From: Leadbetterella sp.
GTDB lineage: Bacteria; Bacteroidota; Bacteroidia; Cytophagales; Spirosomataceae
Assembly: GCA_021740125.1 (NCBI GenBank)
Contig: JAIPAJ010000001.1
Coordinates: 77,017-115,139, forward strand
Direction of reading: 5' to 3'
DNA: 38,123 nt
Positions 3,592 through 26,581 of the stretch are shown in pieces. Both the position numbers and the translations under genes were made by a program. The number at the start of each line of letters is the position of its first letter. The stretch's first letter is position 1. The notes below the pieces were generated by a model that saw only the letters and a list, made by a program, of their open reading frames with translations, did no database searches and was not told the DNA's origin.

Positions 3592-4728
3592 ATGAAAATT
3601 GAACAAAAAATAACCACTGGCACCGGCTGGCAAACAGTCTATTCTCATAAAGGATTCAACCAAGAACTCTGTCAAATTGTCTTGGTTTTGGGTGGAAAAA
3701 ACAATATCACTTTTGAAACTCTGGGTAAAATAAAAGTTGACTATCCAAATGCACAATTAATTTCTGCCTCAACTGCGGGTGAAATCGCCAATTATAATTT
3801 CTATGACGAGCAACTTTCTACCACTGCCATATATTTGGAAAAAACGCCTTTTGTAAGCAAGTTGGCCAATATAAAAGACTTTGCCAATAGCTTCGATTTA
3901 GGCCTCGACTTATTCAAAAAAATGCCAAAAGATAATCTTAAATATATTTTAGTATTATCAGATGGTGGCCTTATAAACGGCACGGAACTTCTAGAAGGAA
4001 TAAATACAGAAAATAACGATGAAATACTTATTACCGGCGGATTGGCAGGTGACGGATCGCGGTTTCAATCGACTCTTGTAGGAGTAGATGCCAATCTTGA
4101 ATCAGGGAACGTCGTGCTGATAGGTTTTTATGGAGAATACATAAAAGTTGGTCATGGCTCATTAGGTGGTTGGGACGAATTTGGTCCCGAAAGAATTGTT
4201 ACAAAATCAGAAAAAAACGTACTTTTTGAGTTAGACAATAAAAATGCTTTAGAACTCTACAAACAATACCTTGGTTCTTATGCTGATGAACTCCCAGGCT
4301 CAGCTTTGTTGTTCCCTATTTCGATTTCAAATGATGCACAAGACACCAAAAATGTCCGAACAATCCTGTCAATTGACGAGTCAAACCAATCCATGACATT
4401 TGCAGGTAATTTGCCTGAGGGTAGCAAAGTAAGACTCATGAAAGCAAATTTTGACAAAATAATTAACGCCTCTGGATCTGCAGCACAGCAAGCTGTTTCG
4501 TTTGATTTCGACAAACCAGACCTGGCTATTCTAATAAGTTGTGTGGGAAGAAAACTGATATTAAACGACCGAGTAGAAGAAGAAATAGAAATAGCAAAAG
4601 ACATTTTTGGGGTAGAAACTTGTGTCTCAGGATTTTACTCTTACGGTGAGATCTCTCCGTTAGTTAAATCCCAAAAGTGCGAATTACAAAACCAAACTAT
4701 GACCATTACCACGCTTAAAGAAATTTGA
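3592..4728 (+). CDS. FIST-domain sensor protein (NosP-like)
   Basis: 378-aa cytoplasmic protein with FIST N and FIST C domains. FIST_N, residues about 25-215, shows the family blocks SASTAGEI (58-65), GGLAGDG (149-155) and the GHGSLGGWDEFGPER stretch beginning at 187. FIST_C, about 220-365, ends with the typical GFYSYGEISP block. Some FIST proteins, named NosP, bind heme and sense nitric oxide, and regulate an adjacent hybrid kinase. Here a hybrid kinase starts only 4 nt downstream, which fits that arrangement. His188 in the GHGS motif is a conserved-looking candidate ligand, but heme binding is an inference. FIST domains have also been proposed to bind small ligands such as amino acids. No signal peptide or membrane helix is present. 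Confidence 0.88.
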   Translation: MKIEQKITTGTGWQTVYSHKGFNQELCQIVLVLGGKNNITFETLGKIKVDYPNAQLISASTAGEIANYNFYDEQLSTTAIYLEKTPFVSKLANIKDFANSFDLGLDLFKKMPKDNLKYILVLSDGGLINGTELLEGINTENNDEILITGGLAGDGSRFQSTLVGVDANLESGNVVLIGFYGEYIKVGHGSLGGWDEFGPERIVTKSEKNVLFELDNKNALELYKQYLGSYADELPGSALLFPISISNDAQDTKNVRTILSIDESNQSMTFAGNLPEGSKVRLMKANFDKIINASGSAAQQAVSFDFDKPDLAILISCVGRKLILNDRVEEEIEIAKDIFGVETCVSGFYSYGEISPLVKSQKCELQNQTMTITTLKEI

Positions 4729-4732
4729 TACT

Positions 4733-6780: not shown

Positions 6781-9177
6781 TTATTTTATCAAGACCAAAG
6801 AATTCTTTAATCCCTTAAGCTCAACAACTTCTGTATCTCCAATTGCCTTTGGCTTAACAACTTTCCCGTTCAACTTCCATACGCTAAATTTGCCTTTTGG
6901 TTGAGAGAAAACCAGTTTCCAGTTGCTAAATTTTTGATTAATATCGAAACTTTGGAAATCTGTTTTTTGAATAAAACTTAATGAGATTTGATTTTCTCCT
7001 ATTTCCACATCTTGTATTTTTCCGTCAACCAACTTGCTTGGAAGCAATGGCGAAATATGAACAGTTTTAATATGTGCCAAAGGTTTTATTCCAAAAAACT
7101 GTTTGATAATGGGTTCCCCAAAAGCATACATATTCCAAGCTTGTGAAAACATACCATAGTCAGGTGAAACTTCATAAATTGAGCCAGGAAGGGCAAAACT
7201 GAAGGATTTTATCATTTTTTTGAGAAGTGAATAGGCTTCGTCTGGTCTACCATAGTTATTTTCGGCTACAGCTTGTACGCCAGTTGGTAAGGTCATTACC
7301 GCACCTGTGTAAGTAAATACTTTCCGATTGGTCACAAACGAGCCTTCTTCCGTTCCCGCCGTTTCATCACGGTCAATGCCAGTCACAAACATGCCGTATG
7401 GATTTGTAAATTTCATTGCTGTTTCGAGAGCTTTAATAGCCTTTTCTTTGTCTGCAATTCCCATTTCCATGGGTGTGTTTACAACCCAGTTGTGGTGCAT
7501 CACAAAACCTCTTTTTTCATCTTCTGAATATGTCTCAATTTGTTTTTTAGAATTCTTGAGTTCATTTACTGCCCACGGTTTTTTTAAAGTGTCCGCTCTA
7601 ATTATGGCATCATCCAAGAGGTGCAAGGCTTGTTTTTTTGTACCTATAAAATCTGCATAAGAGTTAAATTCCTCTACCCAAAAATCCTTGTTAATTTTTT
7701 CTTTGATTTTGTCTGCTTTGGATTGATATTGATTGGCCAAATTTGTTTTTCCTAAAACTAAAGCCATCTTGGCAGCATCAGCAAATGCTTTTTGAGAATA
7801 AACCGCCACATCAATCATTTCAGAATCCATGCCATGAATTTCCATCATCCCGAAACCGTCAGGAAGAAGATTTCCGTCCTTATCCTTTTCCTTCAACAGC
7901 CAGTCTAAGCCTTTTTCTATGGTTGGAAAGTACTTATTCAAGAAAGCCTTTTCACCAGTCCAACAAAAGACCTCCCAAATCAATGAAGCAAATTGTGGTG
8001 TTTCATTTACATTCCCATTATTAAAAACTGCACCGTTTGTGGATACCTCATGTACGATTTTTCCATTACCATTGGTTTTTTCTGAAATCCCATGAATCAA
8101 ATCTATTGTGCTATATACCAAATCTTTACGACCAGTTGCTATCAAGCCTTTCAGCGTATATTCATTGTCCACACCAAACCACCATGGGTAATCAGGCAAA
8201 CCCGCACACAAGCCTCTGCCTTGTCCTTCCACATCTCTGATGAGCCAATCGGTATTATACTTAATCCAGCGAAATCCTTTTTCAAAGTCTTTATCGCTGA
8301 GCGTTATCTTTGATTTTTCATTTACATTTAAAAGCCTAGTTTGCTTCTTTTGCAAAACCAAATATGCATTTTGAGCTAACTCAGCATAAGAATTCAAAGC
8401 ATCCATGTGGCTCTTTTCTGAACCCGAAATAATCAGTGGAAAATAACCGTTAGCTTTTGAAGAAACAGTCAGATTATATTGCGTTCGAGTTATGGAAGTA
8501 TTGATTTTATACGAATGATTTTCTTTTTCTGAAACAACAATTCCTTTCAATTTTGAACCATATATCACATACCAGGGATTCAATTTGTCTTTTACCAACC
8601 ATTTGTTTTCTTTAAAAAAAGCCTCGTCTTTACCATCCATCATATTGGTTCTTTCACCCATCCAAACTGGCATAAGATTGGAAATTGCTTTTAATTCTAT
8701 GGAAACATTAAAGACTTTTTTCGTCTTATTTTTTATCAAGAACTCAATGTAAACTGCCCGCTTTCCATCTGGCACAAATTGGTATCTTTCTATTATAAAA
8801 TCAGGAGATAAACTGTTGTAAATAAGCTTATTACCAAATGAATAATTTTCAAAAATATCAGCTTTGTTCAAAACATACTTTTGGTTATTTACCATCATTT
8901 CCACCTCAAAACCATCCATGAGCTTGATTGGGTGACACCAAACTCCGCCCATTTCGCCCTGTACATGCCAACCCAAGTCTGGAAACGTACCATCTTGATG
9001 ACCGACCATATAAAGCCTATCGCCTGCAGTAGCATATGGACTGGCTAAATATTCTGGTTTACCTTGTATTTTTTCAGCATTTGTGAAAAGCGGGGAAATG
9101 CTTTTATGAATGGCGTTTTGAGCAACAGAAAATTGGAGGAAAACAAGTAAAAAGAAAAGGGTTTTACGAATATTCAT
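6781..9177 (-). CDS. Secreted (alpha/alpha)6-barrel glycosidase (glycogen-debranching / GH15-GH63-like fold)
   Basis: I chose the ATG at 9177 because it begins a clean signal peptide (MNIRKTLFFLLVFLQFSVAQ). Starting further upstream would add 63 charged residues and run into the fusA terminator and stop. The mature protein is about 778 of 798 aa. An N-terminal beta-rich domain of roughly 330 residues is followed by an (alpha/alpha)6 barrel, with landmarks GLPDYPWWFGVDNEYTL, NETPQFASLIWE, a long helix-rich middle, and EVSPDYGMFSQAWN. A short C-terminal beta domain follows (HISPLLPSKL). This architecture is shared by six-hairpin glycosidases such as debranching enzymes, GH63, GH15 and the GH78 barrel. 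I cannot fix the family or the catalytic acids by eye. It is probably periplasmic or surface-exposed and may act with the glycan locus at 14442-26581. Confidence 0.78.
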   Translation of the reverse strand: MNIRKTLFFLLVFLQFSVAQNAIHKSISPLFTNAEKIQGKPEYLASPYATAGDRLYMVGHQDGTFPDLGWHVQGEMGGVWCHPIKLMDGFEVEMMVNNQKYVLNKADIFENYSFGNKLIYNSLSPDFIIERYQFVPDGKRAVYIEFLIKNKTKKVFNVSIELKAISNLMPVWMGERTNMMDGKDEAFFKENKWLVKDKLNPWYVIYGSKLKGIVVSEKENHSYKINTSITRTQYNLTVSSKANGYFPLIISGSEKSHMDALNSYAELAQNAYLVLQKKQTRLLNVNEKSKITLSDKDFEKGFRWIKYNTDWLIRDVEGQGRGLCAGLPDYPWWFGVDNEYTLKGLIATGRKDLVYSTIDLIHGISEKTNGNGKIVHEVSTNGAVFNNGNVNETPQFASLIWEVFCWTGEKAFLNKYFPTIEKGLDWLLKEKDKDGNLLPDGFGMMEIHGMDSEMIDVAVYSQKAFADAAKMALVLGKTNLANQYQSKADKIKEKINKDFWVEEFNSYADFIGTKKQALHLLDDAIIRADTLKKPWAVNELKNSKKQIETYSEDEKRGFVMHHNWVVNTPMEMGIADKEKAIKALETAMKFTNPYGMFVTGIDRDETAGTEEGSFVTNRKVFTYTGAVMTLPTGVQAVAENNYGRPDEAYSLLKKMIKSFSFALPGSIYEVSPDYGMFSQAWNMYAFGEPIIKQFFGIKPLAHIKTVHISPLLPSKLVDGKIQDVEIGENQISLSFIQKTDFQSFDINQKFSNWKLVFSQPKGKFSVWKLNGKVVKPKAIGDTEVVELKGLKNSLVLIK

Positions 9178-9218
9178 TATATCAAAGGTTAAAGTCAAAT
9201 CTACGAATTTTATCGCAT

Positions 9219-9247
9219 AAAAAAACAGCTCCCATTGCTGAGAGCTG
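9219..9247 (-). terminator. Rho-independent terminator of fusA
   Basis: On the minus strand CAGCTC (9247-9242) pairs with GAGCTG (9231-9226) around a 10-nt loop and is followed by seven T residues (9225-9219). It lies 31 nt after the fusA stop codon and separates fusA from the glycosidase gene. Confidence 0.8.
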
Positions 9248-9277
9248 CTCTTTTTATAACAATCAAAACGAAATCTC

Positions 9278-11389
9278 TTAGTTTCCTTTTTCTTTCTTAA
9301 TAACGCCTTCTGCGATGTTTGAAGGAACAAAATCGTAGTGAGAAAATGTAAGGTTAGCAGTAGCACGACCAGATGACATAGTTCTTAGGTCAGTTACATA
9401 TCCAAACATCTCTGACAAAGGCACATCAGCCTTGATCACTTGGGATCCAGCTTTGGTGTCCATACCTTTCATCATACCTCTACGACGGTTCAAGTCTCCA
9501 GTGATAGGTCCAGTGTACTCGTCAGGCGTCAAAACCTCCAGAGCCATGATTGGCTCAAGTAATTTAGCACCTGCTTGCTTACCAGCCTCACGGAAGCCCA
9601 TGCGAGCAGCCAATTCAAATGACAATGAGTCTGAATCGACGTCGTGGAATGAACCATGGAACAATCTAACTTTGAATGAGTCAACAGGGAAACCAGCCAA
9701 AGGACCAGTTTTCATAGCCTCTTTAAAGCCTTTCTCGATTGCAGGGATAAATTCACGAGGAATCACACCACCTACAATACCGTTTACAAACTGTAAACCA
9801 ATTTTCTTTTCTTTTCCTTCTTCTTCGTCGTCTCTTGGACCGAATTCGAACACGATATCAGCAAATTTACCTTTACCACCCGATTGTTTTTTGTAAACTT
9901 CACGGTGTTCAACAGTCTTGGTAAATGTCTCTTTAAATGCTACTTGTGGTGCACCTTGGTTTACTTCTACTTTAAACTCACGACGCATACGGTCGATGAT
10001 GATTTCTAAGTGAAGTTCACCCATTCCTCTCATGATAGTTTGACCAGTTTCTTCATTGGTTTCAACTGTCAAAGTTGGATCTTCTTCAATTAGTTTTGTG
10101 ATAGCTTTAGAGAAATTGTCTTGATCAGCCGATTTCTTAGGCTCAATGGCATATCCGATAACTGGATCAGGGAATACCATTGATTCAAGAACGATAGGGT
10201 GTTTTTCATCAGAAAGCGTATCTCCTGTTTTGATATCCTTAAATCCTACTACCGCTGCAATATCACCTGCCTCAAGAGCGTCGATTTGATTTTGCTTGTT
10301 AGCGTGCATTTGGAATATACGAGAAATACGCTCTTTGTTACCAGAACGGTTGTTCAATATATATGATCCTGAAGGCAATGTACCCGAGTATGATCTTACA
10401 AAACACAAACGACCTACAAATGGGTCAGTGGCTATTTTAAATGCCAAACCCGCAAATGGCTCAGAAGCACTTGGCTGACGAACAATTTCAGCACCCGTAT
10501 CAGGATTTGTACCTTTGATACCGTCTCTATCTAATGGAGATGGCAACAATGCCATTACCAAGTCAAGCATAGTTTGTACACCTTTGTTTTTGAATGACGA
10601 ACCGCACAACATAGGTACGATTTTCATGTCAATAACAGCAGCACGCAAAGCGGCCAATATTTCGTCTTCAGTGATAGAGTTTGGATCTTCGAAGAATTTC
10701 TCCATCAAAGTCTCATCGTAGTCAGCTACTGCCTCCAATAGATTCTCTCTCCACTCAGCTACTTCTTCCAACATATCTTCAGGAATCGGCACCTCTTGGA
10801 ACGTCATACCTTTATCATGCTCGTTCCAAACCATTCCTCGGTTGTTGATCAAGTCAACCACACCTTTGAAGTTTTCTTCACCGCCGATAGGCAACTGAAG
10901 CGGAACTGCATTTGAGCCCAACATTTCTTTTACTTGCTTACACACGTTTAAGAAGTCAGCACCCGAACGGTCCATTTTGTTTACGAAACCCAAACGAGCC
11001 ACGTTATAGTTGTTGGCCAAACGCCAGTTTGTCTCAGACTGTGGCTCTACACCGTCCACTGCACTAAACAAAAACACCAAACCATCTAATACTCTAAGGG
11101 AGCGGTTTACCTCTACAGTAAAATCTACGTGACCCGGAGTATCAATAATGTTGATATGGTAGTCGTTGTCCCTGTATTTCCAACCAACTGTTGTAGCTGC
11201 AGAAGTGATGGTGATACCTCTTTCTTGCTCTTGCTCCATCCAGTCCATAGTAGCACCGCCGTCGTGTACTTCACCGATCTTGTGGTTAACACCAGCGTAG
11301 TAAAGAATACGCTCTGTAGTGGTGGTTTTACCGGCGTCAATGTGGGCGGCAATACCAATGTTTCTTGTAAATTTTAAATCGCGAGCCAT
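9278..11389 (-). CDS. fusA: Translation elongation factor G
   Basis: 703-aa ribosomal translocase GTPase, the full usual length of bacterial EF-G. The G domain shows AHIDAGKTT (15-23), the RGIT switch-I threonine near 60, DTPGH (83-87) and NKMD (137-140). Domain II follows, with [14 protein letters not shown]. Domains III-V include MGELHLEI, the domain-IV tip region [10 protein letters not shown], and a C-terminal [14 protein letters not shown]. With all GTPase motifs intact it looks like canonical EF-G1, not the GTPase-poor EF-G2 paralogue known in some Bacteroidota. No rpsL, rpsG or tuf gene lies next to it, so here it is a stand-alone gene with its own promoter and terminator. Codon use looks more conserved and GC-richer than that of its neighbours, as expected for a highly expressed gene. 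Confidence 0.98.
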
Positions 11390-15185: not shown

Positions 15186-16628
15186 TTAGAATTCGTACTT
15201 CAAAGCCAAGGCGGGCTCACTTTTGTATTTTTCTATCCATTTTTTTGAAATCCAAACGGTGGTTTTATCGCCCTTGGTTTCCCATTTCAAAGATTCTTTT
15301 TCACCAACTATCGCAATAATCGTTCCTTTTTTTGGTGAATTCCCCTGCCAAGTAATCGTTTCTTTTAGATAATCTTCAGGGGTAATTTTTTGAATAGCAT
15401 ACTTAAAATTCTCCTTACTTTTTGTGAAGTAGACATTTCCAGATTGAAAATTTTCCAAACTACGCGTATTATAAATGGCTTCTCCAAATTTATTGAGCCA
15501 AATGCCTATTTCGTTCAATCTGCTAATTTGTTCAGGCAAAAACTCTCCTTCGGCAGTTGGTCCTACCCCAAGCAATAGATTTCCACCTTTCGCGACAATT
15601 TCTATTAAAGCATGAATTACCGAAGCTGATGGTTTAAAATTGTCATTTGGCACAAAGCCCCAAGCTCCTCCCAATGTAATACAACTCTCCCATGGGTTTT
15701 CGGACCTTTCTTTGGGTATAGCCTGCTCAGGGGTACGATAGTTTTCGTATTCACCATGTACAGTTCTGTCCACTATCAAAATACCATCTTGGTTTTTTCT
15801 AACCATATTGGCTATTTTTGGCATATTTATTTCTTGGTCAAAATCCGGAATGGGAGCTCCCCAAGCCCTAACCTCTTCTGTTACGGTATTTCTTGGCCTT
15901 ACCCAGCCACCATCCAACCAAAGTATATCTATTTTACCAAAATCACTTGTAAGTTCGTTGAGTTGATTATGGGTATATTCTATGAATTTGTTCCAACGCC
16001 ACGGATTTTTCCTAATGTCATAGTTCACATTTCTATTTGGTGTAGAATGTCTATCCCACCAAAAATATTGTGAGTGCCAGTCAGGTTTTGAATAATAAGC
16101 TCCTATTAAGAAATTCTGTTTTCTAAATGCATCGAAAACAAACTTTGCCACATCAGCTTTGGGGTTTTCTTTAAAAGGTCCGTTCGAAATTTTAAAATCT
16201 GAAAACTTGGTATCGAACATATTGAAGCCATCGTGGTGTTTAGTCGTAAAAACCAAGTACTTCATTCCTGCAGATTTAGCAGCCGAAGCCCAAGAATCGG
16301 GATTAAATTTTATAGGATTAAATGACTTATTTAGTCCCCAATACCATTTTTTGTATTCGGCATAATTGCTCGAAGAGTCACGGGTAATCCAGTCTTCATC
16401 ACACAAACTCCAAGATTCTATGATACCGGGAACCGCATACAAACCCCAATGTATGATAATGCCAAACTTTTTATCTCTCCAATTTTCAAGGTTTTCAGCA
16501 ACTTTCTTTTCTTTGGGATATTGATATTCTGTGGATGCTGGGTGGACGGTAGATTGTGAAAAGCCCAAATTAAAAAACACTAATCCAACGAATAAAAATG
16601 AAAATACCTTTCTACAAAAACCAACCAT
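15186..16628 (-). CDS. Secreted alpha-L-fucosidase, glycoside hydrolase family 29
   Basis: 480-aa exported enzyme. The signal peptide is about residues 1-25 (FLFVGLVFFNLGFSQ). The catalytic TIM barrel shows the GH29 landmarks IIHWGLYAVPG (His60), KHHDGFNMFDT (130-140), YYSKPDWH (178-185) and DILWLDGGW, in which Asp239 is the expected nucleophile. The general acid is not conserved in sequence and I do not assign it. A C-terminal beta-sandwich begins near residue 390. Length fits the family. GH29 enzymes release terminal alpha-linked L-fucose from glycans or glycoconjugates. The gene diverges from the transmembrane regulator at 16767 across an AT-rich gap with inverted repeats, which suggests control by that regulator. 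Confidence 0.95.
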   Translation of the reverse strand: MVGFCRKVFSFLFVGLVFFNLGFSQSTVHPASTEYQYPKEKKVAENLENWRDKKFGIIIHWGLYAVPGIIESWSLCDEDWITRDSSSNYAEYKKWYWGLNKSFNPIKFNPDSWASAAKSAGMKYLVFTTKHHDGFNMFDTKFSDFKISNGPFKENPKADVAKFVFDAFRKQNFLIGAYYSKPDWHSQYFWWDRHSTPNRNVNYDIRKNPWRWNKFIEYTHNQLNELTSDFGKIDILWLDGGWVRPRNTVTEEVRAWGAPIPDFDQEINMPKIANMVRKNQDGILIVDRTVHGEYENYRTPEQAIPKERSENPWESCITLGGAWGFVPNDNFKPSASVIHALIEIVAKGGNLLLGVGPTAEGEFLPEQISRLNEIGIWLNKFGEAIYNTRSLENFQSGNVYFTKSKENFKYAIQKITPEDYLKETITWQGNSPKKGTIIAIVGEKESLKWETKGDKTTVWISKKWIEKYKSEPALALKYEF

Positions 16629-16693
16629 CTTTGATATAATGTATTTATTTTGTTATTAAAAAATTTTAATAAAATTAATAATATATATAAATA

Positions 16694-16738
16694 AAAAGTT
16701 AATTATTACTTAATGAAATAATAAAATAGTTAACTTTT
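16694..16738. promoter_or_regulatory. Nested inverted repeat in the fucosidase/regulator divergent promoter
   Basis: AAAAGTTAA (16694-16702) and TTAACTTTT (16730-16738) are perfect 9-bp arms. Inside them TTATTA (16703-16708) and TAATAA (16719-16724) pair as well. The element is central in the 138-nt gap between two divergent genes and ends 4 nt before a consensus -7 box. It is a candidate operator, although low base complexity raises the odds of a chance match. Confidence 0.45.
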
Positions 16739-16742
16739 GAAC

Positions 16743-16750
16743 TAAATTTG
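16743..16750 (+). promoter_or_regulatory. -7 box of the regulator gene
   Basis: TAAATTTG is a perfect TAnnTTTG element ending 16 nt before the ATG at 16767. A start near 16756 would leave a leader of only about 10 nt. No good TTTG -33 element is visible at the usual distance, which would fit activator dependence or autoregulation. Confidence 0.45.
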
Positions 16751-16766
16751 GCTATAAATCTAAAAT

Positions 16767-19322
16767 ATGCTACATAAAACACTCTGGATATTACTTTTAT
16801 TTTTAAGCCACAAAACCTTGGCTCAAGAATATGGCTTGGAATTTATGGGCCATGAGGTAAATCCCGATCAACGGACATCCTTTACTATAGGAGAGCGTCA
16901 AGAAATCTGTTTTGATGACAGCTTTGAGCTTAGCTTTGAGTTGAAGTTTAAAAAAAGCGTCGTTTCATATTTTGGTTATATTTTTAGAATGGTGAACGCT
17001 GAAAACCAAAACATTGATTTCCTTTACAATTCAAGGAATACAGAAAAATTTAGAATTGTCAACAAAGATTTGAGTTTCTCCTCAAACTTAGGCCTTGATT
17101 CATCAAAACTTTACAACCGCTGGTCGAAACTTAGGTTTCTATTCAATCATAAAACCAAAGAATTGAGTATTTATGAAGGCACTAAATTCTTAGAAAAAAA
17201 GGTCATCACATTTAATGAAAAGAATTGCTTAAAAATATATTTTGGTGGAAATAAAAACACCAAATTTGCCACGAAAGACGTTTTGCCGATGTATATAAGA
17301 AACGTCACACTTTCAAAAGGAGCGAAGGTGGTTAACTTTTGGAAGCTCAATGAGGTTAATGGAAATGTTGCCAAAGAAACCGTAAAAGCTAGCAGTGGAA
17401 GTGTAACCAACGGCTCATGGATGCTTGTTAGACACTACGAATGGCGAAAACGAATAGATTCCACATTTAAAGGCCAAACTACATTTTATTTCGATAGAAG
17501 TTTAAATCATTTCTTGATACATTCTGATGAAGGAAGTTTTTATTTCAATGAAAAAAAATCTGCAACAATCTCTCGGCCTTTCAACAAAAAGCACAATAAG
17601 TTTACGTTTGGCGATCAAAGTTATTTTCTTAATGGATCACAAAACGGGGTAAATGTTCGCTTAAATCAAAAGGAGATTTATTCCTATGATTCAAAAACCA
17701 ACTCGTGGAATACTCCCGCGAATCTAAACCCCGAACTTACCGAATATTGGCACCATAATCAGTATTTTTATCCTAAAGACACGGCCATTGTGTTGATTGG
17801 AGGTTATGGTCAATACACTTATAAAAATAATTTTCAGAAATACTCTTTCTTAAAAAAACAGTGGTCAGAACTTAAAATGAATGGAGATAGGCTAGAACCT
17901 CGCTACTTGTTTGGAATTGGCCATACCAAGAAACTTGATAAATCTTACATTTTTGGTGGCTATGGTTCCAAAACGGGGGAACAAGAAATAAATCCACAAA
18001 ATTTTTATGACTTATTAGAAATTAACTGGAAGGACCTTTCTATAAAAAGAATTTACACCTTAGAATCGCCTGAATATCCTTTTGTGGCAGTAAAATCAAT
18101 GGTAATTGACGAGAAAAATCAGGTTTTTTATGCCCTAATTTATAACCAACTCAATTTTAAAAGCTCTCTACAACTCGTTAAAGGATCACTTATCAAGCCT
18201 GAGTATGAGATTATCGGCAAGCCAATACCTTATGACTTTCAGGATGTTGCCAGTTCTGCGGACTTGGCATTTGACGAAGAAAATCAAAAGTTGGTTTGTG
18301 TCACCTATCATTATGACAGATTAAAAAATATATCTTATAATAAAGTTTACACATTAGATTTCCCACCAGCAAACAAAGATGCCACCATTTCACAAACAGA
18401 AAATAATGTTGTAAAATGGCTTACTATATTGGCAATTACACTGATTGTTTTAGTGATTTTAATCTTAGGAATCTTCTTTTTCAGAAAACGAAAAAGCAAA
18501 ATCCATTTGGTTTCAAAATCTGAAGAAAACTTTGATAATTCTAAATTTCAAATTCACGCAATTCCCGTTGAAAGCTTAAAAGAAACGGAAAATGTAAGGA
18601 GTAAGCTAATTCTGTTCGGAGGTTTTCAATTTTTAACTGCTAGAGGCGAAGATTTGAGTGTACATTTTACGCCTTTGGTAAAGGAGCTGTTTTTGTATTT
18701 ATTATTAAACTCCATCAAATGGAATAAAAGCGTAAATTCACAACAACTCAATGATTTGTTTTGGTATGATAAAACGACCACCAGTGCCAGAAACAATCGT
18801 TCAGTAAATCTTACAAAACTAAAGGTAATTTTTGAGCAAGTCGGACATATACAAATATCAAAAGAGTCGGGCGATTGGCAGATAATATTTGATCCTCTCC
18901 ATGTTTTTGTGGACTATTATGACTTTTTGAAACTCACCGACGAAAAGAAAAACCTCAGTAAAGAAGAAATCAACCTCCTTACAAAAATTGTTTCTAGGGG
19001 CAACTTCCTCTTCAATCTCGAATATGAATGGCTCGAGCCTTTCAAGTCTGAAATATCCAATAGGGTAATTGACGCCTATACTTCATATTCGAAAAACCTC
19101 AGCTTTGAATCCAACGCCCAAGAAATTATCGAAATCGCCGACAGAATTTTTGTTTTTGACAAGGTAGATGAAACTGCTATGGAAATGAAATGCAAGGCAT
19201 TGGTTGTCCTTGGCAAACATTCTCTTGCACTAAAATGCTATGAACATTTTGAAAAAGAATACCAACTTCTTTACGCCGAAAAATTCAATAAGTCGTTCAA
19301 ACAAATCATTAACGGCATTTAA
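16767..19322 (+). CDS. Transmembrane one-component regulator: LamG-like/kelch-like sensor, TM helix, winged helix and BTAD output
   Basis: 851 aa. A signal peptide (1-19, LLLFLSHKTLAQ) precedes a LamG/concanavalin-like beta domain (about 20-205) and a kelch-like repeat region (about 225-530) with blocks such as VLIGGYGQY near 343 and YIFGGYGSK near 395. One hydrophobic helix (about 551-572, WLTILAITLIVLVIL) ends in RKRKSK, a stop-transfer signal placing the C terminus in the cytoplasm. Residues about 613-700 (ILFGGFQFLTARGEDL, then ARNNRSVNLTKLKVIF) resemble the OmpR/SARP winged helix. About 713-851 resemble the helical BTAD domain that follows it in SARP regulators. I infer an extracytoplasmic glycan sensor that controls genes directly, without a kinase. 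It is divergent from the fucosidase and upstream of susC/susD. Topology is well supported; the DNA-binding assignment is by pattern only. Confidence 0.75.
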   Translation: MLHKTLWILLLFLSHKTLAQEYGLEFMGHEVNPDQRTSFTIGERQEICFDDSFELSFELKFKKSVVSYFGYIFRMVNAENQNIDFLYNSRNTEKFRIVNKDLSFSSNLGLDSSKLYNRWSKLRFLFNHKTKELSIYEGTKFLEKKVITFNEKNCLKIYFGGNKNTKFATKDVLPMYIRNVTLSKGAKVVNFWKLNEVNGNVAKETVKASSGSVTNGSWMLVRHYEWRKRIDSTFKGQTTFYFDRSLNHFLIHSDEGSFYFNEKKSATISRPFNKKHNKFTFGDQSYFLNGSQNGVNVRLNQKEIYSYDSKTNSWNTPANLNPELTEYWHHNQYFYPKDTAIVLIGGYGQYTYKNNFQKYSFLKKQWSELKMNGDRLEPRYLFGIGHTKKLDKSYIFGGYGSKTGEQEINPQNFYDLLEINWKDLSIKRIYTLESPEYPFVAVKSMVIDEKNQVFYALIYNQLNFKSSLQLVKGSLIKPEYEIIGKPIPYDFQDVASSADLAFDEENQKLVCVTYHYDRLKNISYNKVYTLDFPPANKDATISQTENNVVKWLTILAITLIVLVILILGIFFFRKRKSKIHLVSKSEENFDNSKFQIHAIPVESLKETENVRSKLILFGGFQFLTARGEDLSVHFTPLVKELFLYLLLNSIKWNKSVNSQQLNDLFWYDKTTTSARNNRSVNLTKLKVIFEQVGHIQISKESGDWQIIFDPLHVFVDYYDFLKLTDEKKNLSKEEINLLTKIVSRGNFLFNLEYEWLEPFKSEISNRVIDAYTSYSKNLSFESNAQEIIEIADRIFVFDKVDETAMEMKCKALVVLGKHSLALKCYEHFEKEYQLLYAEKFNKSFKQIINGI

Positions 19323-19442
19323 ACTCAATTTGAATCAATTTAGCATAGGCTAAGGGCAATTAAAGTCCCAAAATATTTTATTATTTAATTTAATAAGAAT
19401 AGGGTTTTTACTAAAAAAATTCAAAAATTAACTCAATCTTAC

Positions 19443-19497
19443 TCCTGCATTAAGTATTTATTAATTTTAAATTAAAGGTCAAGATTAATTTGCAGGA
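19443..19497. promoter_or_regulatory. Distant inverted repeat upstream of susC
   Basis: TCCTGCA (19443-19449) and TGCAGGA (19491-19497) are perfect 7-bp arms 41 nt apart, and with one gap they extend to ACT(T)CCTGCA. They stand out in an AT-rich 212-nt gap between the regulator and susC. TAATTTG at 19486-19492, one base short of TAnnTTTG, overlaps the second arm. This is a candidate operator or leader stem. Confidence 0.35.
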
Positions 19498-19534
19498 AGT
19501 TTTTTAAACCTTGAAAATCAAATTTTACTCATTT

Positions 19535-22500
19535 ATGAAAAAAAATCTATTCAAAGTAATGATGTCGTTTCTCGTTACTTTGATGGCCGTGCAGTTACAT
19601 GCACAAGACGTAGCCATCAAAGGTAAAGTAACTGACGACACTGGAAGCCCGATCTACGGAGTAAACGTTGCCGTAAAAGGCACAACAAAAGGAACCATTA
19701 CAGACAGCAACGGAGATTACAGTATTTCTGCTGCCAAAGGAAGCACTGTTACTTTTAGTTATATTGGTTTTGCTGCCACAAACGTGGTTATAGACAATGC
19801 ATCTACAGTTAATGTTAGTTTAAAACCAGACGCAAGTATCTTAAACGAAGTGGTAGTAACTGCCCTTGGTATTTCTAAAGAAGCTAGAAAAGTAGGTTAT
19901 GCCGTAACTACTGTAAGCGGCGACCAAATGATCAAAGCCAGAGAAACTAACGTGGCCTATTCCATGGCCGGAAGAGTAGCTGGTTTGAACATATCAGGAA
20001 CAAACGGTGGTTCTGGTTCATCAGCAAGAATATTGTTGAGAGGTATGGCCAGTTTCGGTGCTAGTTCTCCTTTAATCGTACTTAACGGTGTGCCTATCGA
20101 CAACACCCAAAGAGGTAGCTCTGGTGAGTGGGGTGGATCAGACAACGGTGATGGTATCTCAAACCTAAACCCTGATGACATTGAAAATATGTCAGTATTA
20201 AAGGGAGCCTCTGCTTCGGCACTTTATGGTGCTCGTGCTGCTAACGGTGTAATTTTGATTACTACCAAATCAGGCAAAAAAGGCAAAATGGCCATTGATT
20301 ACAACCTTAATACTGTAGCTGAGCAAGCCATCAATTTTACAGACTATCAGTACGAATACGGTCAAGGACTTAACGGGAAAAGACCTGACAACGTAACAAG
20401 TGCTTTGAATAGCGGTATGTTGAGCTGGGGTGAGAAATTGGATGGAAAATCTACCATTCAGTTTGATGGCAAAAGCTATCCTTATTCCGCAGTAAAAGAC
20501 AATATGAAAAACTTCTACCGTACGGGTAGTTCTATCACAAACTCTATTTCGCTTTCTAGCGGAACGGAAACTGGTAGCTTCAGACTTTCATTGGCCAATT
20601 TGAACAACAACTCTATTCTTAGAAATAGCGGGTTGACAAGAAGAACAGCCAACTTCACTGGAAATCAGAAATTTGGTAAAAAACTTACCATTGATTTGAT
20701 GGCCAATTTTGTAGATGACTTTAACAACAACAAACCACAGTTGAGCGATGGCCCTATGAACGCCAACAACATCAATTTCTTGGCTACAAACGTAAGTGAG
20801 ATGGCCTTACAACCTGGTTACAATGCAGCTCTTCCTACTGGAAACGAAATTCAATATAACGACGATATCTATGTAACCAACCCGTGGTTTGTGGTTAATC
20901 GTTATGAAAACGACGTGAAAAGAAAAAGGATGATATCAGCAATACAAGGTAAGTATGACCTTACAAAAAATATTTACGGATTGGTTAGATTAGGTTATGA
21001 CTACATCAATGACGGATTGTTCAAAATCACGCCAACTGGAACAGCCTACTCTGGTGGAAATGCCGGTGGATTGGACGATTTGGCGAAATCAACAACTATA
21101 GAAATGAATGCTGATGCGATATTGGGCGGAACATTCAAAATCAATGATGATTTCGGTATTGACGCTCTTGCTGGAGGAACTATCCGAAAAAATGAATACG
21201 ATAGAGTGAAAATAGGCGGTGGTCCTTTTGTGATTCCTTTCTTCTATAGCCCTTTCAACGTATTGAATTTCAATAGAGACTATTCTTACTCTAAGAAACA
21301 AGCGAACTCAGGCTATTACTCGTTAGATTTCAACTACAAAAATATGTTGATTCTTTCAACTACTGGTCGTTATGACGCCTTCTCTACCTTGCCTACAAGC
21401 AACCAAGGTATCTTTACGCCATCATTCTCTTTGAGTTATGACTTCACAGAAGCTTTAAAAATGGACAAATTGACTTATGGAAAATTAAGAGCGTCTTACG
21501 CAGTGGTAAGTGGTGAGCCTTTGAGTCCATACTCAACTTCACAATACTATAGTGTTGGTTCTGCAATTCAGGGAATCACTACTGGTTCATTTGGAGGTAG
21601 TCTTCCAAACTTATTCTTGAAGCCATTCACCCTTACTGAGTTTGAAGTAGGTACTGAACTTAAGTTTTACAAAAACAGATTGGGTATTGACCTAGCGTAT
21701 TTCAACAGAAAAACCAACAATGAAATCATAAATGGTTCATTGTCAGAAGCTACAGGTTATTCTTCTCAATTGATTGGTACTGGTTCAACTCAAAACTCAG
21801 GTCTTGAGGTATTGTTGACTGGTGTTTTGGTAGAAAACAAAGATTTGAAATGGACGAGTTCATTGAATTTTACAAACATCAAGAATAAAATCCTTGAAAT
21901 CAATGGATCAGGTTCAGAGAATCAGCAATTAGGAATGGGTACTTACCGTCCTTTGAATGCAAACATTGCAATTATCAAAGGAATGCCTGGCCCACAAGTA
22001 ATGGCCAATGACTATACTTACCTTAATGGTAAAATAGTAGTAGATGCATCTGGAATTCCGGTACAAAACGGAACAAGAACTGCAATGGGATCTGTATTGC
22101 CTAAAGTATATGGTGGTTTGAACAACGAAGTGAGTTACAAAAACTTCAACTTGTCGTTCTTGATTGACTATAGATTTGGAAACAAAATCTTGTCAGCCAC
22201 AAATTATTACACCACTTTCAGAGGTTTGAACCAAATCACTTTGGAAGGACGTGAAACAGGTGTAAAAGTGGACGGTGTAACGGCTGACGGTCAAGCCAAT
22301 ACTAAAAGTGTTCCAGCTCAAACTTACTACCAAAATTTGGCAAGAAGAATTTCAGCATTGAACGTATTAGATGGAGACTTTATCAAGTTAAGACAAGTAA
22401 CGTTAGGGTATTCTATCAAACCTAGCGTATTCGGTCGTCTTCCAATCAAATCAGCCGAAATATCTATTGTTGGTCGTAACTTATTGACTTTGTTCAAAAA

Positions 22501-22618
22501 GTCGGACAACATAGATCCTGAAGCCGGATTCTCGTCTCTAATAAACTATGCTGGTATAGAAGGCAACAGTTTGCCATCTACTAGAACTTATGGTTTAAAC
22601 CTAAATGTTAAATTCTAA
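19535..22618 (+). CDS. SusC/RagA-family TonB-dependent outer-membrane transporter
   Basis: 1027 aa from the ATG at 19535. The eight codons before it begin with TTG and precede a perfectly normal signal peptide (MKKNLFKVMMSFLVTLMAVQLHAQ), so I exclude them. A carboxypeptidase-regulatory-like beta domain (about 25-105, IKGKVTDDTGSPIYGVNV) is followed by the SusC link LNEVVVTALGI. A plug domain (about 115-230) contains ILLRGMASFGASSPLIVLNG and SVLKGASASALYGARAANGVI. The rest is a 22-strand barrel ending in an aromatic residue (LNVKF). SusC proteins import oligosaccharides across the outer membrane using TonB energy, with a SusD lid. The partner begins 14 nt downstream. The substrate is unknown; the nearby fucosidase suggests fucosylated glycans. 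Confidence 0.97.
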   Translation: MKKNLFKVMMSFLVTLMAVQLHAQDVAIKGKVTDDTGSPIYGVNVAVKGTTKGTITDSNGDYSISAAKGSTVTFSYIGFAATNVVIDNASTVNVSLKPDASILNEVVVTALGISKEARKVGYAVTTVSGDQMIKARETNVAYSMAGRVAGLNISGTNGGSGSSARILLRGMASFGASSPLIVLNGVPIDNTQRGSSGEWGGSDNGDGISNLNPDDIENMSVLKGASASALYGARAANGVILITTKSGKKGKMAIDYNLNTVAEQAINFTDYQYEYGQGLNGKRPDNVTSALNSGMLSWGEKLDGKSTIQFDGKSYPYSAVKDNMKNFYRTGSSITNSISLSSGTETGSFRLSLANLNNNSILRNSGLTRRTANFTGNQKFGKKLTIDLMANFVDDFNNNKPQLSDGPMNANNINFLATNVSEMALQPGYNAALPTGNEIQYNDDIYVTNPWFVVNRYENDVKRKRMISAIQGKYDLTKNIYGLVRLGYDYINDGLFKITPTGTAYSGGNAGGLDDLAKSTTIEMNADAILGGTFKINDDFGIDALAGGTIRKNEYDRVKIGGGPFVIPFFYSPFNVLNFNRDYSYSKKQANSGYYSLDFNYKNMLILSTTGRYDAFSTLPTSNQGIFTPSFSLSYDFTEALKMDKLTYGKLRASYAVVSGEPLSPYSTSQYYSVGSAIQGITTGSFGGSLPNLFLKPFTLTEFEVGTELKFYKNRLGIDLAYFNRKTNNEIINGSLSEATGYSSQLIGTGSTQNSGLEVLLTGVLVENKDLKWTSSLNFTNIKNKILEINGSGSENQQLGMGTYRPLNANIAIIKGMPGPQVMANDYTYLNGKIVVDASGIPVQNGTRTAMGSVLPKVYGGLNNEVSYKNFNLSFLIDYRFGNKILSATNYYTTFRGLNQITLEGRETGVKVDGVTADGQANTKSVPAQTYYQNLARRISALNVLDGDFIKLRQVTLGYSIKPSVFGRLPIKSAEISIVGRNLLTLFKKSDNIDPEAGFSSLINYAGIEGNSLPSTRTYGLNLNVKF

Positions 22619-22632
22619 ATCGTAAAAGAAAG

Positions 22633-24237
22633 ATGAAAAAATTCAAATATATATTCTTAATGATTTCTGTTTTTACACTTTCGTGTACTGACAACTTTGA
22701 GGAAATCAACACAGACCCGAACAACACGAGTGCGGCTGTTTTTAACCCAAATTATCTTTTGGCACAGTCGCAGTATGACTACAGCAATACAGGTTATTCA
22801 CAATTACTTTTCCAAAGTATGTGGTCACAAGTATTGGCTTCAACTTTCTCTTATTATGGAAATGGCGACAAATATGTAGCTTCTGGAAGCTTTGATGCTT
22901 ACAAAGGCCGTGTTTTTGAAGAGACCTATCGTGCTGCTACTAAGGTTTATGAAATGCAAAATCTTACAAAAGACAATGCAGAACTTTCAAACCTTTACAA
23001 TATCGGTACCATCATGAAAGTGTTGTGTATCGCCAGAATCACAGATACTTATGGTGATGTGCCTTACACAGAAGCTCTTAAAGCAAAAGAAGGGATAACA
23101 CTTCCAAAATATGACGACCAATCGAGCATATATCCAGGATTACTAGCTGAACTTGAAAAAGCTATTGCGGCGTTGAGTACATCTAAAGCTGGTCCTACAA
23201 ACGACCTCATGTTTAAGGGAGATGTAAACAAGTGGAAAAAATTTGGTAACTCACTTATGCTTAGACTTGCTATGAGATTAGTAAAAGTGGATGCTGCTGC
23301 TGCCAAAGCTTGGGCTGAAAAAGCCGTCGCTGGGGGCGTTTTTACAAGTGTTGATGATAATGCTAAAGTTCTTACAGATGCTAGCTCACAAAGCAATAAT
23401 ACAACCGGTGCATTGAGAGTAGGTGATGATTACAGAGAAGTAAGATGGAGCAAAACTTTCATGGATTACTTGAAAAACACAAAAGACCCAAGAATTAGTG
23501 CGATTGCTGAAGTTTCACAACCAGGTCTTGCAAACAATTCAAATCAAGACCTAGCCGGTGATAACGCAGAAGCTATTCAAATTGGTCTTCCAAACGGTTA
23601 TGATTTAAATGGCGGGGCTACAGACATTGCTAAGCATCCTCAATATCCAGGTGCCTCTGGTACTGGTACTGATGTAGCTAAAGTGGGTAAATATTCAAGA
23701 CCAAGAACATCAGTTTTCTTGAGTAGAAGTGGTGTCAACTTTGTTTTGACATACGCTGAAACCGAATTGTTGCTTGCTGAAGCGAAAGTTAGAGGTTTTT
23801 CAGTTGGAGCTGCTACAGCTGCTGACCACTACAAAAATGGTGTGAAGGCTGCCATAGCTTCTTTGGCTCAATTTAACTCAGCTGCTGGCTCTGATGCTGC
23901 AATAGCGGATGCATTGAGCAAGTCTGATGCATTCTTGGCTGCTAATCCGCTTTCTACAACATCTGTAGAGGCTTCGTTGAAACAAATCAACGAGCAAATT
24001 TGGGTAGCAACTGGTACTACTTTCAACTTCATTGAAAACTGGAACAACTGGAGAAGATCTGGTTATCCAGCTTTGACACCTGTAGTTTATCCAAATGGAT
24101 TCTCAAATGGTCAGATTCCAAGAAGAGTACCTTACATACTAAATGAAGCTTCTTACAATGAAGCAAACTATCGTGCAGCTATTGCTAAACTTGCGGGCGG
24201 CGATACCTTCACTGGAAGAGTTTGGTGGGATAAATAA
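22633..24237 (+). CDS. SusD/RagB-family surface glycan-binding lipoprotein
   Basis: 534-aa lipoprotein. The lipobox TLSC puts the lipidated Cys at residue 18. The mature protein begins TDNFEEINTDPNNTS, the usual SusD-like_2 opening, and is rich in TPR-like helices (for example NIGTIMKVLCIARITDTYGDVPY, KKFGNSLMLRLAMRLVKV, LTYAETELLLAEAKVRG). The C-terminal region contains FNFIENWNNWRRSGYPALTP, typical of this subfamily. It forms the hinged lid over SusC and captures glycans at the cell surface. It is in one operon with susC, and a strong terminator follows. Confidence 0.95.
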   Translation: MKKFKYIFLMISVFTLSCTDNFEEINTDPNNTSAAVFNPNYLLAQSQYDYSNTGYSQLLFQSMWSQVLASTFSYYGNGDKYVASGSFDAYKGRVFEETYRAATKVYEMQNLTKDNAELSNLYNIGTIMKVLCIARITDTYGDVPYTEALKAKEGITLPKYDDQSSIYPGLLAELEKAIAALSTSKAGPTNDLMFKGDVNKWKKFGNSLMLRLAMRLVKVDAAAAKAWAEKAVAGGVFTSVDDNAKVLTDASSQSNNTTGALRVGDDYREVRWSKTFMDYLKNTKDPRISAIAEVSQPGLANNSNQDLAGDNAEAIQIGLPNGYDLNGGATDIAKHPQYPGASGTGTDVAKVGKYSRPRTSVFLSRSGVNFVLTYAETELLLAEAKVRGFSVGAATAADHYKNGVKAAIASLAQFNSAAGSDAAIADALSKSDAFLAANPLSTTSVEASLKQINEQIWVATGTTFNFIENWNNWRRSGYPALTPVVYPNGFSNGQIPRRVPYILNEASYNEANYRAAIAKLAGGDTFTGRVWWDK

Positions 24238-24436: not shown

Positions 24437-26581
24437 ATGAAAACGGTTTCAATAGTTGTTTTTACTATAATTTTACTTTTCTACAACAAATTTGCCAATG
24501 CACAAGACTGGCTAATTAATCCTATCAGCCAAAAAGCTCTAATAAAAGTAGAGCAAAATAAAATTGAACTCAATAATGGTCTCTTAAAAAGACAATTTGT
24601 AATTGGCCAGAACCTGGCCTGTTTTGATTATGTCAATTTAACGAACAACCAACAGCTTCTTAGGGCCATAAAACCTGAGGCAAGAATAAAAATAGATGGA
24701 AAGGAATACAATATTGGAGGCTTGCTTGGTCAGACAGAACAGGCGTATTTGCAAACCGATTGGATACAAAAACTAAAGAAAGGAAAAACAGACTTTGTAT
24801 TCAAAAACCATGAAATTACAGAGATAAAACCTCAAATAAAATGGATAGCCAAAACTTGGCCAAGCAATATCCAAAATCCAACAGGTAAAACGCTGATATT
24901 GAACTTCAATCCACAAGAACCAAACCTTGAAGGTTTAGAAATTGCCATTCTATACGAAATTTACGATGGCATACCTTTGATAGTAAAATCTTTGCAAATC
25001 AAAAATACTGGTACAAAAACATTTAGAATTGATAGAGTAGTAAACGAAATCTTGGGTTTGGTAGAAGAAGAAAGTGCAGTGGTAGGCAAACCCGAAGAAA
25101 TGAAAAAACAACATGGCATTTATATAGAAACCAATTATGCATTCAACAATGCCATGCGGTATGACATCAGCGACCAAACCACCCACTGGAAAGTCGACTC
25201 CATTTACACTTCACAAGTAAACTATAATTACCAAACACCTTGTCTGTTAGAAATTTACCCCGAAAAAGCCCCTGGAATCGATTTGAAACCTAGTGAAACC
25301 TTCAATTCGGTAAGAACACATGAGCTACTCATGGACAGCTACGATCGGCAACGACGAGGACTGATGATTAAGAAAATGTATAAGACTGTCGCACCTTGGA
25401 CATTGCAAAATCCGATATTTATGCACTTGGTAAGCAAAAATGACGCTGAGGTAAAAACGGCCATAGACCAATGCAAATCAACAGGTTATGAGGCCGTGAT
25501 ACTCAGCTTTGGCAGCCACCTTGAAATGGAAAATACCTCCCCAGAAAATTTCAATCGTTGGAAAATACTTGCAGATTATGCTCACTCAAATGGCATACTC
25601 TTAGGTGGCTATTCTTTGTTTAGCTCAAGAAGAATCACAGATGAGCACGACGTCATTTCACCCATTACGGGTAAGCCAGGAGGGGCGTTTTTTGGAAACG
25701 CTCCATGTTTTGGAAGTCAATGGGGACTGGATTACAGTCAAAAAATAAAGAATTTCTTTGAAAAAACAGGTTTCGACATTTGGGAAAACGACGGCCCATA
25801 CCCAGGTGATCTTTGTGCGTCTAGCGTACATCCCGGTCACAGAGATTTGGAAGACAGCCAATGGAAACAAATGGAGATTCAGAAAGATTTGTATCGTTGG
25901 CTTAACGAACATGGGGTTTATATCAATGCTCCCGACTGGTATTTTTTGGATGGCACACACAAAATAGCCTTGGGTTACCGTGAGGTGAACTTCTCCCTTA
26001 GCCGCGAGCAACAACGCATCTTAAACCGCCAAAATATTCATGACGGTACTATCGAAAAAACCGCTGCCATGAGTTGGGGATTTGTTCCACTTACTCGTTA
26101 TCAAGGTGGAGGTCCAGAAGCGGTTTTGGAGCCTCTAGAAGAACATCTGGAAGACTATAAACAACTTATGATGCAATATTATGGAGCAGGCGTGCAGGCG
26201 TGTTACAGAGGTCCAAGACTTTTCGATACTGAGAAAACAAGAAAAACCGTAGCCGAAACCATCAATTGGTATAAAAAATATAGAGAAATCTTGAACTCGG
26301 ACCTCATTCACCTCCGCCGTGCCGATGGAAGAGATTGGGACGGTTTCCTACATGTTAATCCTTCCTCAAAACAAAAGGGCTTCTTGATGGTGTTCAATCC
26401 TACAACTCAGCCCATTACCAGAAAGGTAAAAATACCCCTCTATTACACGGGCATTGAATCTAAAGCCAATATGAAAGAAAAAGATGGTATTTCTAAGGCT
26501 TATTCTTTAAACAGAAATTATGAAATAGAAATAACAGTATCGATTCCTGCAAATGGTAATAATTGGTATGTTATTGAATAG
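24437..26581 (+). CDS. Secreted predicted TIM-barrel glycoside hydrolase (clan GH-D-like, family unassigned)
   Basis: 714-aa exported protein. The signal peptide is about residues 1-23 (VVFTIILLFYNKFANAQ). Residues about 25-310 are a beta-rich domain like the N-terminal super-sandwich of GH36-type enzymes. A barrel of about 320-610 contains GYEAVILSFGSH, HSNGILLGGYSLF, GFDIWENDGPYPGD (Asp447, Asp452) and HGVYINAPDWYFLDGTHKIALGYRE. A C-terminal beta domain holds GFLMVFNPTTQPITRKVKIPLYY. An Asp at the end of a barrel strand in DIWENDG is the obvious nucleophile candidate, as in clan GH-D. I do not recognise a named family and give no substrate. It is separated from susD by a terminator, so it probably has its own promoter, but context places it in the glycan locus. 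Confidence 0.65.
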   Translation: MKTVSIVVFTIILLFYNKFANAQDWLINPISQKALIKVEQNKIELNNGLLKRQFVIGQNLACFDYVNLTNNQQLLRAIKPEARIKIDGKEYNIGGLLGQTEQAYLQTDWIQKLKKGKTDFVFKNHEITEIKPQIKWIAKTWPSNIQNPTGKTLILNFNPQEPNLEGLEIAILYEIYDGIPLIVKSLQIKNTGTKTFRIDRVVNEILGLVEEESAVVGKPEEMKKQHGIYIETNYAFNNAMRYDISDQTTHWKVDSIYTSQVNYNYQTPCLLEIYPEKAPGIDLKPSETFNSVRTHELLMDSYDRQRRGLMIKKMYKTVAPWTLQNPIFMHLVSKNDAEVKTAIDQCKSTGYEAVILSFGSHLEMENTSPENFNRWKILADYAHSNGILLGGYSLFSSRRITDEHDVISPITGKPGGAFFGNAPCFGSQWGLDYSQKIKNFFEKTGFDIWENDGPYPGDLCASSVHPGHRDLEDSQWKQMEIQKDLYRWLNEHGVYINAPDWYFLDGTHKIALGYREVNFSLSREQQRILNRQNIHDGTIEKTAAMSWGFVPLTRYQGGGPEAVLEPLEEHLEDYKQLMMQYYGAGVQACYRGPRLFDTEKTRKTVAETINWYKKYREILNSDLIHLRRADGRDWDGFLHVNPSSKQKGFLMVFNPTTQPITRKVKIPLYYTGIESKANMKEKDGISKAYSLNRNYEIEITVSIPANGNNWYVIE

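Follow-up and report, generated by a model that had tools for sequence, protein, structure and literature searches.

A membrane-spanning SARP-like protein with a kelch ectodomain as a candidate regulator of glycan-utilisation loci in Bacteroidota

Introduction

Which protein decides when a glycan-utilisation locus of the susC-susD type is switched on? We address this question for a locus of Leadbetterella sp., within a stretch of 38,123 nucleotides (hereafter the window: contig JAIPAJ010000001.1 of assembly GCA_021740125.1, positions 77,017 to 115,139, forward strand), where a susC-susD pair and a divergent fucosidase gene flank a gene for a membrane-spanning SARP-like protein of 851 residues (16767..19322, plus strand, ATG start). 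An earlier note, made from the letters of the window alone, had read this product as a one-component glycan sensor acting on both neighbours. The ORF list (ORF, open reading frame), Pfam profiles, homologues and structure models confirm its description as a whole, i.e. the ORF, the kelch ectodomain, the membrane helix and the C-terminal module; its interpretation is partly supported, the core idea standing. From the architecture, predicted fold and conservation of the protein, its association with such loci, and the geometry of a predicted operator and its co-occurrence with the regulator, all obtained by computation, we consider it quite probable that the protein is a one-component regulator which crosses the inner membrane once and is devoted to a glycan-utilisation locus, with the SARP-like module acting on an array of TTAAT repeats to turn on susC-susD and glycosidase genes.

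The C-terminal SARP-like module

Conservation within the protein is highest over the C-terminal 246 residues (median identity 43-45% for the module), which comprise a predicted winged-helix DNA-binding domain (residues 606-710; 18582..18896, plus strand) and a BTAD-type helical domain (residues 711-851; 18897..19319, plus strand), both assigned from a model and structure matches. The AlphaFold model, built with 59 sequences, has a predicted local distance difference test score (pLDDT) of 93.2 and runs from beta strands through three helices and a hairpin into a helical repeat region; the winged helix that the earlier note expected here is present. In a Foldseek search six chains of EmbR and AfsR were the only matches at E <= 0.001 (TMq 0.64-0.72). 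Upon realignment AfsR (8k60/8hvr) gave Z 15.8-15.9 over 232-235 residues at a root-mean-square deviation (rmsd) of 4.0-4.1 Å and EmbR (2fez/2ff4) gave Z 14.8-15.0, whereas the next row of the list reached only Z 8.3. The predicted recognition helix (residues ~671-692) contains the motif ARNNRSVN, and A674, N676, N677, V680, N681 and K684 are present in 78/78 homologues. In the model, an OmpR-type winged helix and an adjoining BTAD are combined in one module of ~250 residues, the combination that marks SARPs, in agreement with the initial assignment.

What the fold search found was not recovered from sequence: a profile of the module compared with PDB sequences gave nothing significant, and the BTAD stays below the Pfam cut-off of 22.1 bits, both in the whole protein (15.7) and in the C-terminal part (18.6), being matched at E 0.01 in just 2/59 members. 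This shortfall is a point against our reading and the one argument for an ordinary enzyme or adhesin with a C-terminal SARP likeness by chance. Against such a coincidence stand the structural match over the entire module, with scores well clear of those further down the list, the invariant recognition helix and the operators predicted below; we reject it, rating its probability as very small. We class the protein as SARP-like and not as a formal member of the SARPs. Its module sits at residues 606-851, behind a membrane helix, whereas the small and large SARPs of the published accounts that we drew on have theirs at the N-terminus.

Ectodomain and membrane span

The N-terminal stretch MLHKTLWILLLFLSHKTLA (residues 1-19; 16767..16823, plus strand) reads as a signal peptide, with a putative cleavage site behind it. 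In 60/78 homologues the equivalent hydrophobic stretch passes a simple hydropathy threshold, and that of the window protein stays below it. There follow a predicted all-beta domain (residues 20-221; 16824..17429, plus strand; structure model mc1be3c727de9) and a predicted kelch beta-propeller (residues ~222-536; 17430..18374, plus strand), the all-beta model of the ectodomain having a mean pLDDT of 87. Among Pfam profiles, Kelch_1 and Kelch_3 exceed their cut-offs in the window protein, PF24681 (E 2.8e-11) and PF24981 (E 1.4e-9) match it under Pfam's own cut-offs, and PF24681 is found at E 0.01 in 59/59 ectodomains scanned. The best structural matches of the propeller are eukaryotic kelch domains (KLHDC3, Z 21.0), and LZTR1 aligns with Z 20.8-20.9 and an rmsd of 3.3-3.5 Å over 267-272 residues. 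Profiles and model together indicate that residues ~222-536 form a kelch-repeat propeller, as had been surmised. The LamG-like character initially ascribed to the N-terminal part found no support: LamG was not among the Pfam matches to the first ~200 residues in the 59 members, and profile comparison (hhalign) of residues 20-221 with two LamG regions gave no match.

As to what this ectodomain might sense, 12/59 ectodomains also match NANM, the sialic-acid epimerase kelch family, and sugar-binding sensors are usual in such loci in the sections of PMC3878776 that we consulted, both of which favour a sugar. The alternative is a protein of the locus (SusC, SusD or a processing enzyme). For this it may be said that, judging by structure titles, peptides or proteins are the ligands in many solved structures of kelch propellers, and that Bacteroidota anti-sigma factors read SusC-like porins, again in the consulted sections of PMC3878776. 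On balance we think a protein ligand rather unlikely.

The membrane helix predicted by a hydropathy scan (residues 554-572; 18426..18482, plus strand) is followed by RKRKSK. One mid-protein helix is found in 76/78 homologues, three of these having a further hydrophobic stretch, and the C-terminal flank is the more positive side in 75/76, bearing out the view of a single-span protein. The linker behind the helix (residues 576-605) is the least conserved stretch of all, with a median identity of 7% as against 43-45% for the module. This variability would suit a scheme with the same protein and operator in which intramembrane or juxtamembrane proteolysis frees the SARP part as a soluble, active fragment, as would a free SARP-like protein of 259 residues that adjoins the membrane form in one distant genome and the distance at which the operator array can lie from the regulator gene (6/27 matches, see below), which is easier for a soluble factor. 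The data hold no sign of cleavage, no search having been aimed at a cleavage motif or partner protease, and in the usual view SusR-type and ToxR-type regulators do their work while in the membrane; release by proteolysis appears to us a fair alternative of lower probability, and we favour a regulator that works from the membrane.

Distribution of homologues and association with Sus loci

The regulator ORF is the sole match at E 0.01 in its own, Lacihabitans-like genome bin (G000; 3.74 Mb, 77% complete). Among 200 genomes of the window's family, the own genome included, 51 have a match at E 1e-5, and it spans nearly the whole protein in 49/51, with 33-95% identity outside the own genome; with near-full-length matches this widespread the gene is neither a chance ORF nor a fusion artefact. 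Across the phylum a match at E 1e-5 is present in 18/392 genomes, in some of them confined to a single domain, and nine of 16 distant positive genomes were fetched. In named genomes 225 encoding stretches were detected, and 79 loci were kept from these, in Lacihabitans, Emticicia, Arcicella, Jiulongibacter, Larkinella, Spirosoma, Dyadobacter, Mucilaginibacter, Pedobacter, Sphingobacterium, Hufsiella, Parapedobacter, Pinibacter and metagenome bins. The nearest named relatives are Lacihabitans sp. CS3-21, at 95% identity, and L. soyangensis, at 79%. For conservation counts the copy in L060, which a contig end truncates, was left out of the 79 to give the 78 homologues used here, 58 of which passed an 85% identity filter.

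Elsewhere in Bacteroidota, C-terminal modules of this kind also occur with other N-terminal parts: a membrane protein with LamG alone as ectodomain (L048:151-2232, plus strand), one with a weak PI-PLC-like match and LamG (L040:1489-3882, minus strand), one with a short ectodomain without a Pfam match (L052:1495-3432, minus strand) and, like the last, one without a recognisable kelch part (L051). The free protein of 259 residues mentioned above (L047:1426-2202, plus strand) is encoded next to the membrane form in L037, a kelch regulator whose gene it directly follows. Among further copies, that at G192:C3:5500-8082 is a second one, diverged mid-frame within one open frame and matched in two pieces, and that of G059 is split over contigs C140 and C124.

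In the window the regulator gene is preceded by a divergent alpha-L-fucosidase gene of glycoside hydrolase family 29 (GH29; 15186..16628, minus strand), a possible target, and followed by a susC-like TonB-dependent transporter gene with a likely ATG start at 19535 (19535..22618, plus strand), the predicted target, and by a gene for a susD-like lipoprotein (SusD-like_2; 22633..24237, plus strand). SusC and SusD both lie within 10 kb in 25/27 focal regions vs 8/44 random regions of the same contigs (p 3e-10), a comparison tilted towards the focal regions, since focal neighbourhoods served as the training set for the profiles of SusC and SusD. Loci existed for 30 of the 51 positive genomes, and 27 were used, the own genome and two on short contigs being left out; 48 random controls were drawn, and 44 were fetched, the other four each overlapping a fetched one. 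The Pfam density of SusD, which is independent of the trained profiles, amounts to ~0.12 per 20 kb (662 matches to PF07980 in 17 genomes of about 110 Mb). The association with Sus loci that the earlier note made a matter for a survey of homologues is therefore strong in the near family.

At least one glycan-locus cluster is present in 76/79 named loci, among them SusC (44), GH92 (42), GH99-like (48), GH3 (21), DUF5703/GH95-like (18) and others. The label GH99-like rests on weak matches in 4/4 sampled members, one of them above Pfam's cut-off, a fifth member having no match at E 0.001. The DUF5703/GH95-like cluster (e.g. L080:4638-6797), found mostly in Mucilaginibacter loci, has an exact TTAAT pair at 11 bp upstream in 12/15 cases; it is a candidate regulon enzyme family without a known substrate.

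A predicted operator of TTAAT repeats

TTAAT words 11 bp apart were first spotted by eye in the intergenic regions of twelve loci. When all 5-mers were counted at distances of 6-30 in 205 regions from loci not inspected before, TTAAT at 11 ranked first, with 84 regions as against a median of 4 over distances and 3/404 control regions, 22 bp being also high. Triples of at least 14/15 at spacings of 9, 10, 11, 12 and 13 occur in 2, 3, 64, 3 and 0 of the 79 loci, and in 0, 0, 4, 0 and 0 of 44 control regions, the controls all coming from the window's family and the 79 loci holding other families too. At the looser limit of at least 13/15, 73/79 loci have a triple at 11 bp, with 12, 12, 23 and 7 at spacings of 9, 10, 12 and 13. 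Two of the four control arrays precede a susC gene and a GH29 gene, one each (L196, control of G150, and L164, control of G049), and both genomes hold the regulator.

The predicted susCD operator of the window, TTAAG-N6-TTAAT-N6-TTAAA (19449..19476, plus strand), scores 13/15 with an 11-bp period (shuffle p 0.0005). On the minus strand 19449-19475 reads as an exact TTAAT triple, located between the regulator gene and susC; the search of the own genome bin gave no other. The Bacteroidota promoter consensus consists of -7 and -33 elements, and downstream of the predicted operator there is a -7-like box, TTAATTTG (19485..19492, plus strand), starting at offset 35 with a gap of 6 bp, i.e. one bp nearer the array than in most relatives. 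A TWnnTTTG-like box (at least 5 of 6) is found at offset 36-39 in 80/106 sites vs 2-12/106 in ten other offset windows, and the gap after the third heptamer is 7-8 bp in most sites. For SARPs, the portions of PMC10936776 that we used give a spacing of 11 or 22 bp for the repeats and a distance of 8 bp between the 3' repeat and the -10 element, and those of PMC5930380 describe three heptamers with 4-bp spacers for PimR. As a prediction from sequence, the array thus matches the SARP geometry of repeats and -10 element.

A second predicted array (14/15; 16688..16714, without assigned strand) lies between the fucosidase and regulator genes. Operator-like arrays are hence present in both intergenic regions named at the outset, 16629-16766 and 19323-19534, and the claimed control of susCD and of the divergent fucosidase is likely, the array in 16629-16766 being statistically weak.

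A different regulator might instead bind at the array, or the array might belong to the promoter, for example as an UP element or phased A+T tracts, with the membrane protein merely travelling along with the locus. Its sites are indeed A+T-rich, 11 bp is close to the helical repeat, and target SusC and regulator are present or absent together in the tested genus. These points are met by several others: control susC genes of the same genomes lack the array (1/11 at at least 14/15, and that one a predicted target), spacings of 9, 10, 12 and 13 are almost empty, and six unlinked susC genes carry the array, every one in a regulator-holding genome. Furthermore, none of the neighbour clusters in more than 7/79 loci could be recognised as a regulator (judged by Pfam, in one case by eye), a LacI cluster occurring in 7, and the geometry is what the SARP fold predicts. 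We hold a mere co-traveller to be improbable and retain the SARP-like module as the factor expected to act on the array.

Genome-wide searches for the operator

A refined pattern of the Dyadobacter type has 27 matches in 22/200 family genomes, the reversed control having one match. The Dyadobacter group has 24 regulator-positive genomes, which include all of these 22, and nine regulator-negative ones, of which 0/9 have a match. By profile search all these matches precede a susC (22) or GH92 (5) ORF; 21/27 lie within 12 kb of the regulator gene and six elsewhere, all before susC, distances being measured to the best regulator copy only; for two of the six "far" matches a second copy lies at 78-89 kb. 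Another pattern, applied to twelve Sphingobacteriales genomes, gave 13 exact matches in six Mucilaginibacter genomes, all 13 inside fetched regulator loci. The bare exact TTAAT triple at 11 bp has 36 matches in 42 genomes vs 9 for the reversed pattern, 25 of them in regulator-positive genomes and eight of these 0.1-8 kb from the gene; at 12-bp spacing there are 11 in the 42 genomes, five in regulator-positive ones and none near a regulator. Four Emticicia-group genomes have an exact triple in front of a susC gene that is far from the regulator (near position 1500 of L222, L223, L239 and L240), and this unlinked susC is likely a second target.

Several results weigh against the proposed regulator-operator pair or narrow its reach. 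The refined pattern is absent from 27 other regulator-positive family genomes, the own one included, and the second lacks an exact match in the other 6/12 genomes; the form of the array varies between genera, and the patterns were designed on focal loci. For the target SusC, the nine regulator-negative Dyadobacter genomes gave no match at E 1e-250, so that the absence of the operator there is expected either way and is no independent evidence. Among the bare triples 11/36 are in regulator-negative genomes. A relaxed pattern (2 mismatches) was discarded as useless in A+T-rich genomes, giving 182 matches vs 130 for reversed controls over the 42 genomes and, in the own genome, 5 vs 7 among the matches listed. 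The array at 16688-16714 is weak (shuffle p 0.023, 89% A+T sequence, 13/15 also at spacings 9 and 12), and a strict TAnnTTTG stands at the box position in 1/106 sites. The loci are related to one another, so the counts overstate independence. SusC or SusD was found in just 45/79 named loci, some of them cut short, and a Sus neighbourhood in 1/9 distant homologues; the glycan role thus holds for the near family and not for the whole architecture.

Relationship to known regulators

With SARPs of the AfsR, EmbR and ActII-ORF4 type the protein shares the winged helix plus BTAD module, a type known in soil actinobacteria from regulators of antibiotics, and a predicted operator made of direct repeats at 11-bp spacing, the last of which stops about 8 bp ahead of a -10-like box. 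Unlike them it is a membrane receptor with the module at its C-terminus, it belongs to glycan loci of Bacteroidota, its BTAD is under the Pfam cut-off, and it has three A+T-rich repeats as a rule. ToxR and CadC are single-span membrane regulators with an N-terminal cytoplasmic OmpR-type winged helix; the single span and the winged helix are common to both, whereas here the N-terminal side is a kelch ectodomain and the DNA-binding domain is C-terminal with a BTAD after it.

Topology and locus also fit SusR of Bacteroides, a single protein with a periplasmic sensor and a C-terminal DNA-binding part that controls sus operons. As far as the consulted sections of PMC3878776 go, the DNA-binding part of SusR does not resemble any other known family significantly, and a distance of 67 or 77 bp separates its predicted sites, unlike those proposed here. 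Hybrid two-component systems (HTCS) likewise combine a periplasmic sensor with a cytoplasmic C-terminal DNA-binding domain to control polysaccharide-utilisation loci (PULs), according to the same sections; they differ in their histidine kinase, receiver and AraC domains, none of which was among the Pfam or NCBIfam matches of the window protein at E 1. Given that SusR and HTCS share this layout (PMC3878776, in the parts consulted), the suggestion that the topology is unusual for glycan regulators of Bacteroidota, or new, does not hold, and the unusual feature is instead the SARP-type output on a membrane receptor.

Mechanistic interpretation

We propose that the periplasmic kelch propeller, together with the beta domain preceding it, would sense a glycan fragment or a protein of the locus. 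The ligand is probably a glycan, perhaps mannose- or fucose-rich in relatives, going by GH92, GH99-like, GH29 and GH95 neighbours. Its docking on the propeller may alter the arrangement of receptor chains and in this way pass the signal across the membrane. The SARP modules, held on a flexible linker, would then bind side by side, as a row of protomers, on the three TTAAT repeats at 11 bp. The repeats, which end 6-8 bp upstream of the Bacteroidota -7-like box, would lie over the -33 region, and the row could hold RNA polymerase at a -7-type promoter. A published parallel for recruitment of RNA polymerase by a SARP is AfsR at afsS, as set out in the portions of PMC10936776 that we used. Both the binding to this operator and the activation are predictions; the outcome would be that susC-susD and the neighbouring glycosidase genes are turned on and, in some genomes, also a susC elsewhere on the chromosome.

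Other genes of the window

Beyond the susD-like gene lies one for a secreted enzyme with a weak N-terminal GH36 match under the cut-off (24437..26581, plus strand). A glycosidase-like gene at 6781-9366 (minus strand) has a listed GTG start that overlaps an elongation-factor-G-like gene (9278-11389, read from translation), and its real start is probably further in. A two-gene unit at 3592-6229 (plus strand), whose second gene is hybrid-kinase-like going by its translation only, is unrelated to the regulator.

Implications

Literature searches of open papers, not all aimed at the point, found no description of a membrane SARP in Bacteroidota; as far as they show, a Bacteroidota membrane receptor with SARP-type output and a predicted operator following the SARP rule is new. 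We think it fairly likely that it stands for widespread receptor-type SARPs in the phylum: membrane-spanning activators with exchangeable periplasmic sensors (kelch, LamG or PLC-like) and SARP promoter geometry, which would form a further route of PUL control beside HTCS, SusR and pairs of extracytoplasmic function (ECF) sigma and anti-sigma factors. Such a receptor would widen two fields, how Bacteroidota decide on the use of glycans and in what ways SARPs may be controlled. The predicted operator lets the regulon of such a protein be read from sequence, and thereby the susCD loci of Dyadobacter, Mucilaginibacter, Pedobacter and their relatives gain a testable regulator and site.

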